From the NCBI GenBank assembly GCA_026388315.1, contig JAPLKA010000067.1, forward strand, positions 1 to 49,799: 49,799 nt of DNA, written 5' to 3'. Under the pieces are notes generated by a model, which saw only the letters and a list, made by a program, of their open reading frames with translations, did no database searches and was not told where the DNA came from. A program made the translations under genes and the position numbers. This DNA comes from Pseudomonadota bacterium (lineage in GTDB: Bacteria > Desulfobacterota > Syntrophorhabdia > Syntrophorhabdales > Syntrophorhabdaceae). Shown here piece by piece: positions 39,089 to 43,983 of this stretch (within the stretch, counting starts at the first letter, position 1; the number at the start of each line of letters is the position of its first letter).

Positions 39089-39553
39089 CTATTTTCTTCT
39101 CCTCTTCTTCCGGTATTCTTCGAGGTATTCCAATGCCTTTTGCTCATCGCCGAGGGCGAGATATGTGAGATAGAGGTTGCCGAGTGCCGCAGCCTCACCA
39201 TCAGCAAAACCTTCCGCTCTAAACTGCTCCAGTACGGTTTCAAAGGCAGCCGCAGCCTCGTGCAATTTGCCTGACCGGAAAAGCTTTGCTCCTACTTCGA
39301 GTAAAGAAGTGTCATATCTTATTGAACGGGGAACTTCCATCGCTGCCGGCTCCCCCTGTTTATCGTTATTCTGCACGAGAGGTTTTTGGGTCTCGGTAGC
39401 TCTTGTTGCTTTATAGTTCATATCCCTTAAGAGCATCTTCTCGTCGTAGAGTTGTATTGCATCTTCGCACCCGTCTGCCGCAACGCAAAGAGTCTGGAAA
39501 ATTATCAGACAAAGCAGGATGGATATTGATATGATCATTCTCATATTAAGCAT
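39089..39553 (-). CDS. exported TPR-like protein, 154 aa
   Basis: Signal peptide MLNMRMIISISILLCLIIFQ with cleavage near CVAA. The central part is Gln/Glu-rich and probably disordered. The C-terminal half has two TPR-like helical pairs (LLEVGAKLFRSGKLHEAAAAF, then ALGNLYLTYLALGDEQKALEY) and ends in a basic run KKRRRK. Divergent from the sigma-factor gene. Likely a periplasmic scaffold; partner unknown. An AAGGAA site lies before ATG 39553. Confidence 0.73.
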   Translation of the reverse strand: MLNMRMIISISILLCLIIFQTLCVAADGCEDAIQLYDEKMLLRDMNYKATRATETQKPLVQNNDKQGEPAAMEVPRSIRYDTSLLEVGAKLFRSGKLHEAAAAFETVLEQFRAEGFADGEAAALGNLYLTYLALGDEQKALEYLEEYRKKRRRK

Positions 39554-39686
39554 TATATTCCTTTTTTTCGGCCGGCATAAAGTAAATTCTACTCATAAAA
39601 TGCAATCCACCTGATTATAAAGACTCAAAAAATAAAGATTTTCTTCCAACAGGATGAAGAAATTCCATGCAATTCTTCAATATATA

Positions 39687-39715
39687 TTCACAATTTTTTT
39701 AAATCCCTGTATAAT
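39687..39715 (+). promoter_or_regulatory. strong sigma-70-type promoter of the sigma-factor gene
   Basis: TTCACA (39687-39692), 17-bp spacer, TATAAT (39710-39715). Five of six and six of six matches. The expected transcript start is at about 39722, the A of the ATG itself, so the mRNA may be leaderless. Confidence 0.6.
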
Positions 39716-39721
39716 GCTTTT

Positions 39722-40327
39722 ATGGTGGGGGATGTTATTTCAACCATTGAAAGATGTCTTGCAGGAGATGGGGATGCGTGGAAGGGTTTCGTAAAGGATT
39801 TTGCCCCTCTGGGAAAGAATATCCTTTTGCGCTCTTTTGATTTCAAACCGGTTGAGCAGGATGATATTCTTCAAAATGTGTTCGTCAAGCTTGTAAACGG
39901 AGGGTTTAAACATTTCCGGGGGACCTCCGAATATGAATTCCTCAAATATTTCAAGACAATCGTCATAAATGAAGCGAGAAGCCATATAACTTCTGAAAAT
40001 AAAACAAAGGGAACAATACAATTAAATGGTGAAATGAACTTGGATGGCCGAACAGATGGCCAGGACGGGCTGTTACTTATGGATACCATACAAGACCCGG
40101 ATAAGAATTCGAGACCGGATTATGCCATAGAGGATAGGGACTTGCTTGAAAAGGCGGCAGGGATCATGAAGACCTATCCCTTGCTCGACCAGGAAATCTT
40201 TTTGATGAAGGTCAAAGGATACAAAGATGAGGATATTAAAACAATATTGAAGATTCCTACCGGAACCGTTGCCTCCAAATATTCACGGATCAGGGCAAGG
40301 ATAGCAGAGGAGCTTGGTGAAGAATAA
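39722..40327 (+). CDS. ECF-like RNA polymerase sigma factor
   Basis: 201 residues. Region 2 (about 22-85: WKGFVKDFAPLGKNILLRSF, DILQNVFVKLVNGGFKHFRG, YEFLKYFKTIVINEARSHI) and region 4 (about 145-200: LLDQEIFLMKVKGYKDEDIK, ILKIPTGTVASKYSRIRARI) flank a 45-residue linker (TKGTIQLNGEMNLDGRTDGQ). This is the plan of ECF and ECF-like sigma factors; the subgroup is not resolved. It should direct transcription of an envelope-stress or surface regulon. The gene 40 bp downstream encodes a membrane protein with an anti-sigma-type zinc finger, its probable regulator. The start lacks a ribosome site. Confidence 0.85.
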   Translation: MVGDVISTIERCLAGDGDAWKGFVKDFAPLGKNILLRSFDFKPVEQDDILQNVFVKLVNGGFKHFRGTSEYEFLKYFKTIVINEARSHITSENKTKGTIQLNGEMNLDGRTDGQDGLLLMDTIQDPDKNSRPDYAIEDRDLLEKAAGIMKTYPLLDQEIFLMKVKGYKDEDIKTILKIPTGTVASKYSRIRARIAEELGEE

Positions 40328-40381
40328 AAATCGGGAAGAAAATTGCCGGTTTCTTAGTCTTTAGTAGTGGAAACTAAAATT

Positions 40382-41905
40382 ATGGATACGTCTTTTGAAT
40401 CAAAGTTAAAAGAAGCCCTCAAAAACGCTGAAGCATTAAAGACCCCGACTTGCCCTGATACTGCAACTATAGGTCTTTATATCGAAGACAAGTTGCCAAA
40501 GGCGGAGGCAATCAGGATAGAGGCGCACATCAGTTCGTGTCTTTACTGCCTGGATCAGGTTTCAGAATTAAAAGAACTGCTTTACTATCAAAAAAAATGG
40601 ACTACTATCCCTTGTCACCTTCTTACGAAGTTAGAAAACATTTATCTTGAAAGGAAAAAATCTGAGAAGAAATCCTCACGTGGTTTTATAAATCTTTTTG
40701 TTGGCTTGATAGCCTCATTCATTGCATTTCCTTTTCGACAGTGGCGGTATGTAACAGTGAGTATCGTGAGTATTTGCGCTGTTCTTTTATTCAGCAGCGT
40801 AAACGATATAAATCTTATGGGGATGATAAGATTCCTTACCCCAAAGAGCGAAATGGCTGGTCTTCCCGAGCTCAATCTCAATGCCTTTGTAAATGTTAAG
40901 GCTCTGGACAACAACGGGATTATGATAAAGGATACCCAGGGAGTAATTATTGATTCACAAGGAACAGTGGCTGCCAATCTTTCTCCGTTAGCCGGAGCAA
41001 CCTCCGTTCAGGTTACACTGAGAGATGGAAAAAGCTACCAGATAAAGAGCATATGGAAAGACGACGGAAAAAATATCGCACTGATGAAGATTGGGGGCGA
41101 GTCGCTGCCATCTTTTAAGGTTGCCGATTTAAAACAGGTCAATATAGGGGAGAGGGTTTTTATCATTACCGACCTTTCTAAACTAAAAGAGGGTACAGGT
41201 GAGGCGGTTATCAGTGATTTCAAGCCTTATGCAGGAAGCCGTTCGGGGGGCGAAGTTCAATACATCCAGCTTGTTTCTTTCACCTCTCAATATACACGAG
41301 GCGCCCTGGTTGACAAGGAAGGAAGACTGATAGGATTAACTATAACTGATGAAAAGAATATCAATCTGGCGGCCCCTTTAAAAGAGGCATTCAGGCTCAT
41401 AAAGGATGGGCAGCCTATCGCGATAAATGAGTTAAAAAATGTTAACTTTTCGGCTGGCGCCTTGAACCTGTATCTTAAGGGCATTCTTGCGCGGAATGCT
41501 CAAGGGCAGGATGAGGCAATAGGGCTTTTCAAAAAGGCGATAGAGCTTAACCCTAATTTAGAAAGCGCCCATATTGAACTTGGTTTCCTGTATTATAAAA
41601 AGCGACTTTTCGACCTGGAGAGGAAAGAATATGAAGAGGCGCTGAAGATTAACCCGAACAATACTGATACCCTGTTTTACCTTGCCACAAATTTGGAAAC
41701 GATGGGACAATATGATGAGGCGACAAAGGTTTTTGAGAAGATTGTAACGCTTGATCCGGAAGATGCAGATGCGTACTACGAACTGGGGTTGGCCTACCTT
41801 GCACAGGGACAGAGGGCAAAGGCAATTGATGCTAGGGATAAGTTACAGAAGCTTGATCCCGGTCTTGCCGGGAAACTGAGGAGAATAGTAAAAAGTGAAA
41901 AGTGA
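40382..41905 (+). CDS. membrane anti-sigma factor fused to a pseudo-HtrA protease domain and TPRs
   Basis: About 507 residues. Residues are numbered from the in-frame GTG at 40367; ATG 40382 is taken as start. Order: zinc-binding anti-sigma-like helix bundle with Cys29 and HISSCLYC (54-61); membrane helix about 129-144; an HtrA/trypsin-like domain about 185-345; TPR repeats about 365-500 (GQDEAIGLFKKAIELNPNLE, EYEEALKINPNNTDTLFYLA, YYELGLAYLAQGQRAKAI). In the protease fold the HtrA blocks align, but all three catalytic residues are lost: His (NNHVV replaced by ANLSPLAG 203-210), Asp (DLALLKI replaced by NIALMKI, N236) and Ser (GNSGGAL replaced by QYTRGAL near 308-314). The stop codon lies inside a heptad array. 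Predicted sensor for the upstream sigma factor. Confidence 0.8.
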   Translation: MDTSFESKLKEALKNAEALKTPTCPDTATIGLYIEDKLPKAEAIRIEAHISSCLYCLDQVSELKELLYYQKKWTTIPCHLLTKLENIYLERKKSEKKSSRGFINLFVGLIASFIAFPFRQWRYVTVSIVSICAVLLFSSVNDINLMGMIRFLTPKSEMAGLPELNLNAFVNVKALDNNGIMIKDTQGVIIDSQGTVAANLSPLAGATSVQVTLRDGKSYQIKSIWKDDGKNIALMKIGGESLPSFKVADLKQVNIGERVFIITDLSKLKEGTGEAVISDFKPYAGSRSGGEVQYIQLVSFTSQYTRGALVDKEGRLIGLTITDEKNINLAAPLKEAFRLIKDGQPIAINELKNVNFSAGALNLYLKGILARNAQGQDEAIGLFKKAIELNPNLESAHIELGFLYYKKRLFDLERKEYEEALKINPNNTDTLFYLATNLETMGQYDEATKVFEKIVTLDPEDADAYYELGLAYLAQGQRAKAIDARDKLQKLDPGLAGKLRRIVKSEK

Positions 41906-41963
41906 AAGGCGGAAAAGGCAGTGAATAGTGAATGGTGGTTAGTGAATAGTGAAAGACGGAAAG
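41887..41963. repeat. heptad array, 11 units in phase
   Basis: AGTAAAA, AGTGAAA twice, GGCGGAA, AAGGCAG, TGAATAG, TGAATGG, TGGTTAG, TGAATAG, TGAAAGA, CGGAAAG. The array starts inside the coding region and supplies the TGA stop of the upstream gene. Confidence 0.8.
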
Positions 41964-41975
41964 GCAAAAAATGAC

Positions 41976-42368
41976 TTATAAACGTTTTATGGCGAGTCCA
42001 TCCTTTTTATACGCTTCAAAATGGCTGTCTGTAGTGTATATCTCCCGTGCCCCTGAATCAAGTAGTCCTGCAAGAATCAACGCATCTATCGCTGGTATGC
42101 CCAAGCCGTGTGATAACCTGCTTGCCAACTCGCAGACATCCGTGGAGTCTATCCATGCCACTTCCCCCACTGCAAAGATCGCCTGTACAGTTGTTTCAAC
42201 TTCATCAGCTTTTAGTGCGCCTTTAAGCGCCAGTCTTTTGAGTTCAAAGACTGTAAGGCAGGAAACAGACGCATCCTCCATACCGTCGACAATTGCCTTC
42301 CAGACCGTTATAGCCTCAGAATTGCCCCTGAGCAACTCCACAAAAAATCCCGTATCAAGTCCTGTCAT
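41976..42368 (-). CDS. VapC-type PIN-domain toxin
   Basis: About 130 residues. PIN-domain acidic residues are at the N-terminus (GLDTGFFVELLRGN), in the middle (Glu in LTVFELKRLAL) and near the end (IPAIDALILAGLL, then IYTTDSHFEAYKKDG). Predicted metal-dependent ribonuclease toxin. Start placed at ATG 42368 (TGLDTGFF), 12 bases after GGAG; an upstream in-frame ATG at 42386 lies inside the antitoxin. The gene overlaps the antitoxin by 14 bases, the usual toxin-antitoxin arrangement. Confidence 0.86.
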   Translation of the reverse strand: MTGLDTGFFVELLRGNSEAITVWKAIVDGMEDASVSCLTVFELKRLALKGALKADEVETTVQAIFAVGEVAWIDSTDVCELASRLSHGLGIPAIDALILAGLLDSGAREIYTTDSHFEAYKKDGLAIKRL

Positions 42369-42588
42369 CTTCGCTTCTCCATGCATCGAGCGTTTTCAAG
42401 ACATCCTCTGCAACATATGCGTTCCCTGCAAGTTTCAGGAGGTCCGTGCCGGCTTTTCTGCGTTTTTTTTCTTTGATGTAATGCTCCAGGGATTCAGCAA
42501 CGAGAGAGGATACGGACTTATGCTCATTTGCAGTAATTCTTTTTATGTCATCGTTCAGACTATCTTTTATATGTACCGTTATACGCAT
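42355..42588 (-). CDS. VapB-type ribbon-helix-helix antitoxin
   Basis: 77 residues. The N-terminal beta-strand MRITVHIKDSL followed by two helices (DIKRITANEHKSVSSLVAES and LEHYIKEKKRRKAG) is a ribbon-helix-helix DNA-binding fold. The C-terminal tail would wrap the PIN toxin. Antitoxin first, toxin second, with overlap. It probably represses its own promoter, upstream of 42588. An AGGAGG-like site lies before the ATG. Confidence 0.85.
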   Translation of the reverse strand: MRITVHIKDSLNDDIKRITANEHKSVSSLVAESLEHYIKEKKRRKAGTDLLKLAGNAYVAEDVLKTLDAWRSEDDRT

Positions 42589-42698
42589 GTTTTACCTCCT
42601 GTGCTTATGTATTATGCGCATATATTATGCTCATATTTTTTGTTATTGTCAATGTGTTCGAGTTTCAGGCGAGATAAGCTTCACGATATACAAAAAAA

Positions 42699-42761
42699 GG
42701 CTGTGAACCGTGAACAACCAATGCTTTTACTATTCACTGTTCACTAACGACTATTCACTGA
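42699..42761. repeat. heptad array, 9 units in phase
   Basis: GGCTGTG AACCGTG AACAACC, AATGCTT TTACTAT TCACTGT, TCACTAA CGACTAT TCACTGA. It shares TTACTAT, TCACTAA and CGACTAT with the array at 10276-10310. It ends just before the ribosome site of the following lipoprotein gene. Confidence 0.75.
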
Positions 42762-42778
42762 ATTAAAGGGAGATGTTT

Positions 42779-43969: not shown

Positions 43970-43983
43970 TTTTGGAGGATAGT

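Follow-up and report, generated by a model that had tools for sequence, protein, structure and literature searches.

An ECF-type sigma factor gene paired with a putative membrane anti-sigma factor that carries a degenerate HtrA fold and TPRs

Protease-like sensors on anti-sigma factors and proteolytically inactive members of the HtrA family are both known already, from RsgI9 and MamO, respectively. In Clostridium thermocellum, the anti-sigma factor RsgI9 carries a cellulose-binding sensor that resembles S1C peptidases, and the RsgI factors are subject to a proteolytic cascade of autocleavage, RseP and ClpXP (PMC12203970). Pseudoproteases of the HtrA type are able to stimulate catalytically active partners and to bind metal (PMC4794232).

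We analyzed a 49,799-nucleotide stretch of DNA from a bacterium of the family Syntrophorhabdaceae (contig JAPLKA010000067.1; hereafter, the window). It encodes an ECF sigma factor next to a protein that joins a zinc anti-sigma domain, a dead HtrA domain and TPRs. This combination is conserved as a family and appears to be new, since the papers searched describe no anti-sigma factor with a zinc anti-sigma domain, an HtrA fold and TPRs. The main features are the following.

39687..39715, plus strand: predicted sigma-70-type promoter, TTCACA-17-TATAAT (consensus scan, 11/12 matches)
39722..40327, plus strand: 201-aa sigma factor of the ECF type, with regions 2 and 4 (ORF and Pfam/TIGR matches)
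40382..41905, plus strand: putative anti-sigma factor of the membrane, 507 aa, combining a pseudo-HtrA domain with TPRs (ORF, domain matches, orthologues)
40439..40591, plus strand: zinc anti-sigma domain core, C24-x24-H49-x3-C53-x2-C56 (zf-HC2 match, five-member alignment)
40748..40804, plus strand: single transmembrane helix, residues 123-141, with basic residues N-terminal to the helix (hydropathy, KD mean 1.89)
40862..41416, plus strand: pseudo-HtrA (DegS/S1C fold) domain, residues about 161-345 (sequence, model, alignment)
41459..41875, plus strand: TPR array, about four repeats, residues about 360-498 (Pfam, structure prediction)

The assignment of the sigma factor draws on its orthologues. 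The window product scores below the Pfam cut-offs for both Sigma70_r2 (19.6 bits) and r4_2 (17.1 bits), and is 32-40% identical to the sigma orthologues outside its own genus. The orthologue in genome G403 (L092:4909-5463) exceeds the cut-offs of all three models, namely Sigma70_r2 (33.7 bits), r4_2 (45.9 bits) and TIGR02937 (72.1 bits, cut-off 42.9), and through it the window protein shows the ECF arrangement, with regions 2 and 4 alone in about 200 amino acids. The -10 element of the predicted promoter ends 6 nt ahead of the sigma ATG, which would leave the mRNA with little or no leader; in the locus of the genus relative (L039), TATAAT is kept and lies 8 nt from the ATG. The scan for sigma-70 consensus sites found six, an unremarkable number compared with the 5.0 expected in shuffled sequence, and it is the site at the sigma gene that reaches 11/12. 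Judged from the nucleotide sequence, this arrangement suggests that the sigma gene may be served by housekeeping transcription of a leaderless message, not by self-activation.

The anti-sigma gene follows after 54 bases. Its longest reading begins at GTG 40367, and the orthologues favor ATG 40382. Along the product, Pfam models match in the order zf-HC2, Trypsin_2 (36.7 bits, cut-off 27.6) and TPR (TPR_11, 5e-21). Among the best 25 Pfam matches there is no RsgI domain, and no PDZ domain after the HtrA fold, where TPRs are found instead. The N-terminal helical domain carries the Hx3Cx2C motif of class I zinc anti-sigma factors, and C24, H49, C53 and C56 are invariant in all five fusion proteins that we collected. 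Two orthologues are recognized by NF052375, the "anti-sigma factor" model of NCBIfam, at 1.9e-9 and 1.1e-5, below the model cut-off. We infer a topology with the zinc domain in the cytoplasm and the HtrA fold and TPRs in the periplasm. The zf-HC2 score of the window copy, 21.5 bits, falls slightly under the Pfam cut-off of 22.2, as might be expected if the protein were an envelope scaffold that merely retained a zinc-finger-like N-terminus and had no anti-sigma function; we consider this very unlikely, given that zf-HC2 exceeds the cut-off in the orthologues from G403 (26.5 bits) and G435, that the four Cys and His positions do not vary, and that each of the five genomes has a sigma gene next to it.

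Whole-genome searching covered the host phylum. Among about 436 genomes, the combination of zinc anti-sigma domain, pseudo-HtrA domain and TPRs was found in five, from three families, a rare and patchy distribution. Two of the three genomes of the window's genus carry it, the relative (G002) with 89-90% identity to the window protein; that locus, L039, belongs to a MAG from sediment of Lake Pavin. G045 (L040) belongs to a different family of the same order (42-47% identity), and G403 (L092) and G435 (L103) to yet another family within the phylum (identity about 26-28%). A second search with a five-member profile, apparently of the same phylum sample, yielded no additional members, and a single locus was obtained from the named genome collection. 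The plasmid search returned ordinary HtrA-like matches alone, with no record covering 80% of the query, and no member of the fusion family was found on the viral contigs searched. Six loci on IMG/VR viral contigs (L113, L114, L115, L118, L121 and L123) encode HtrA-like proteases with intact triads. At L042 (G043:C276, 2802-3131), the zinc domain N-terminus of the fusion family runs into an unrelated coding region near the contig end; this fragment is either a misassembly or a broken gene, and the contig looks misassembled.

The sigma gene travels with the anti-sigma gene. A homologous sigma gene adjoins it in 5/5 genomes: in four it lies directly upstream on the same strand, and in G045 the two genes converge, 3' to 3'. 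A single TAG, in place of a Glu codon of the window, interrupts the frame of the G045 sigma gene (L040 7036-7611), and reflects either a sequencing error or decay; the MAG is 75% complete. When 99 relatives were searched with the sigma factor, scores above 100 bits were confined to three genomes, all with the anti-sigma gene, and the others reached at most 39 bits; the two genes therefore occur together. A chance fusion or an annotation artefact was rejected in view of the five members, the three families and the adjacent sigma genes. The initial annotation had proposed a sigma and anti-sigma pair at 39722 and 40382, and had made its reading depend on conservation of the pair in relatives; both reading frames lie at these positions with matching domains, and pair and fusion are conserved.

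The surroundings differ between families, so that synteny points to no shared regulon. Downstream, an SLH-domain lipoprotein gene at 42773 and a gene at 43972, both with counterparts at L039, are common to the genus only. The gene after the anti-sigma gene in G403 (L092 7280-8203) and G435 (L103 5450-6367) resembles lpxC, of lipid A synthesis, by its sequence. Well-conserved intergenic DNA, present also at L039, lies at 39590-39670, before a divergent TPR gene (39089-39553). The region 41919-42760, downstream of the anti-sigma gene, holds an inserted VapBC pair that is missing at the corresponding place of L039.

41976-42386, minus strand: PIN toxin of the VapBC pair
about 42364-42588, minus strand: antitoxin of the VapBC pair

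On either side of the pair stand inverted repeats of 37 nt, which are imperfect (78% complementary) and consist of AGTGAATAGTGAA units.

The catalytic state of the HtrA domain was assessed in an alignment of 56 domains, comprising the five fusion proteins and 51 other HtrAs, which places three replacements in the window copy.

40982-40984, plus strand: catalytic His replaced by S201 (HtrA alignment)
41072-41074, plus strand: catalytic Asp replaced by N231 (HtrA alignment)
41294-41296, plus strand: catalytic Ser replaced by T305 (HtrA alignment)

All three columns are intact in 51/51 non-fusion domains and lost in 5/5 fusion proteins, which have S/S/S/S/N at the His column, N/N/N/G/G at the Asp column and T/T/A/L/L at the Ser column. 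A HMMER alignment to solved DegP chains agrees on the triad positions. The oxyanion-hole GNSGG motif is missing as well, and the window domain contains no His at all, which excludes a catalytic His relocated within it; relocation of the catalytic residues inside the domain was rejected on this ground. The protein has the trypsin fold of the HtrA/DegS (S1C) family and lacks its His-Asp-Ser triad, and TPRs take the place of its PDZ domain. That T305 occupies the nucleophile position could hint at a protease working through other chemistry, but with Ala or Leu in this column in other members, no His in the window domain and GNSGG gone, this idea is close to refuted.

The dead domain is under purifying selection, with dN/dS of 0.118 in the genus pair, below the 0.188 of the whole protein, and 0.213 between G403 and G435. 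The linker and transmembrane segment has values of 0.25 and 0.37, and the juxtamembrane region is the fastest-evolving part. Purifying selection despite loss of the triad indicates that the domain has been retained for a non-catalytic purpose, and suggests a dead enzyme reused as a sensor.

A structural model of the domain (pLDDT 80.5, pTM 0.79), built from an alignment to which HtrAs of viral contigs contributed, and therefore leaning toward the HtrA fold, matches DegS with a Foldseek E value of 7e-13. The RsgI9 S1C-NTF2 structure 7sjy ranks third by Foldseek and first by VIA-align (Z 19.8, rmsd 2.8 over 182 residues), a first place that counts as a tie, since many HtrAs lie within one Z unit. 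Sequence search with the domain also returns RsgI9 (E 1.4e-4). In a full-length prediction from two close sequences, the TPRs alone are confident, with pLDDT above 90 over most of the array. Further points of the initial annotation hold up here, namely an HtrA-like fold fused in cis with His, Asp and Ser all replaced, and a role other than catalysis, which may be that of a sensor or of a scaffold. Structure prediction, a check that it had suggested, returns the HtrA fold, and catalytic residues elsewhere in the domain, which would have refuted its reading, are absent.

By sequence, the fusion proteins stand apart from ordinary HtrAs. A pseudo-HtrA profile scores the members at 280-304 bits against 67 for the next HtrA, and the five form one clade with support of 100/100. 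No HxxxCxxC motif occurs upstream of the protease domain in any of the 51 other HtrA proteins gathered (0/51), as it would in a zinc anti-sigma domain fused to an active HtrA. The proteins at L085 and L089, apparently secreted, likewise have a trypsin-like domain followed by TPRs, but their triads are intact, they lack a zinc anti-sigma domain and a PDZ domain, and they are not sister to the pseudo-HtrA clade. An origin of the fusion from these proteins is unsupported, both grouping with active HtrAs in a part of the tree weakened by long branches.

A dead protease in cis does not show absence of proteolysis, and an RseP-like M50 protein is encoded in the window's genome along with two HtrA-PDZ proteins that have intact triads (PDZ read from sequence), so that cleavage of the anti-sigma factor in trans is possible. 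We infer sigma binding, topology, sensing and proteolytic release as parts of one scheme, an envelope-signal switch with a dead HtrA and TPR sensor in cis and cleavage in trans, which we think is on balance probable. The cytoplasmic zinc domain would hold the ECF sigma factor at the membrane, and the periplasmic DegS/HtrA fold and TPRs would sense a peptide, a protein or another ligand in the periplasm. Once a ligand binds, or a bound partner is lost, the sensor would expose the juxtamembrane region to separate proteases, with an active HtrA or similar enzyme making the site 1 cut and the RseP-like protease the site 2 cut, and the sigma factor would be freed. Our preference for sensing in cis combined with cutting in trans follows from the RsgI9 cascade, the MamO precedent and the M50 and HtrA-PDZ proteins that this genome encodes. 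Since almost all bacteria have M50 proteases and HtrA, finding them here supports a cascade weakly.

Two other routes to release can be envisaged. The dead domain might join or recruit active HtrA subunits and thereby switch on cleavage of the anti-sigma factor. The degenerate HtrA MamO activates MamE-dependent proteolysis, and pairing of active and inactive proteases arose repeatedly in magnetotactic bacteria (PMC4794232). The two active HtrA-PDZ proteins could serve as such partners, but no partner HtrA adjoins the pair in the stretches examined around the five loci, and we hold this adaptor role to be unlikely. TPRs are protein-binding repeats and are present in all members; they might dock a periplasmic or outer-membrane partner and pass a conformational signal through the membrane helix, with no proteolysis involved. 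Since proteolysis controls most single-pass anti-sigma factors of known mechanism, release of this kind seems rather improbable.

One can speculate, with a modest chance of being right, that in this small family the anti-sigma factor took up a DegS-type protease, which lost catalysis. As a sensor in cis, it might read HtrA-type ligands, such as exposed peptide ends, through its empty cleft, or form mixed oligomers with active HtrA, the same fold then acting as sensor in cis and cutter in trans. If the dead fold does still bind HtrA-type ligands, a site-1 protease would have turned into a receptor of a like pathway. The five natural versions, with their differing dead-site residues, are material for tests.

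Each of the known systems shares part of this design. The RseA-DegS-RseP/RpoE pathway of E. coli likewise has an ECF sigma factor, a single-pass anti-sigma factor and a DegS-type fold, but there DegS is an active enzyme in its own right and bears a PDZ domain, whereas here the fold is dead, lies within the anti-sigma factor and is followed by TPRs. MamO, of magnetotactic Alphaproteobacteria, is an HtrA pseudoprotease with a non-catalytic role, which is not an anti-sigma factor and acts in MamE-dependent proteolysis and metal binding (PMC4794232). Class I zinc anti-sigma factors of the ChrR and RsiW type (PMC7406223) share the N-terminal Hx3Cx2C and an adjacent ECF sigma gene; no member with a pseudo-HtrA and TPR sensor is described in the papers searched, though the figure of fused domains in PMC7406223 may list one. 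The initial annotation had set a dead fold in cis against known systems with a separate protease. The dead HtrA fold in cis stands, but the fusion has a precedent in RsgI9 (PMC12203970; 7sjy), also a membrane anti-sigma factor with an outside S1C/HtrA-like domain as ligand sensor. RsgI9 differs in belonging to the RsgI anti-sigma-I family, whose sigma partners are of the SigI type, in possessing an NTF2 domain and a periplasmic domain that cleaves itself, in having no described zinc anti-sigma domain or TPRs and no known cognate sigma gene, and in its Gram-positive host. The window protein has a zinc anti-sigma N-terminus in place of the RsgI type, and an ECF-type partner in place of SigI. With RsgI9 as the first, the family described here would add a second instance, apparently of independent origin, in which the outside part of an anti-sigma factor is an HtrA/S1C fold.
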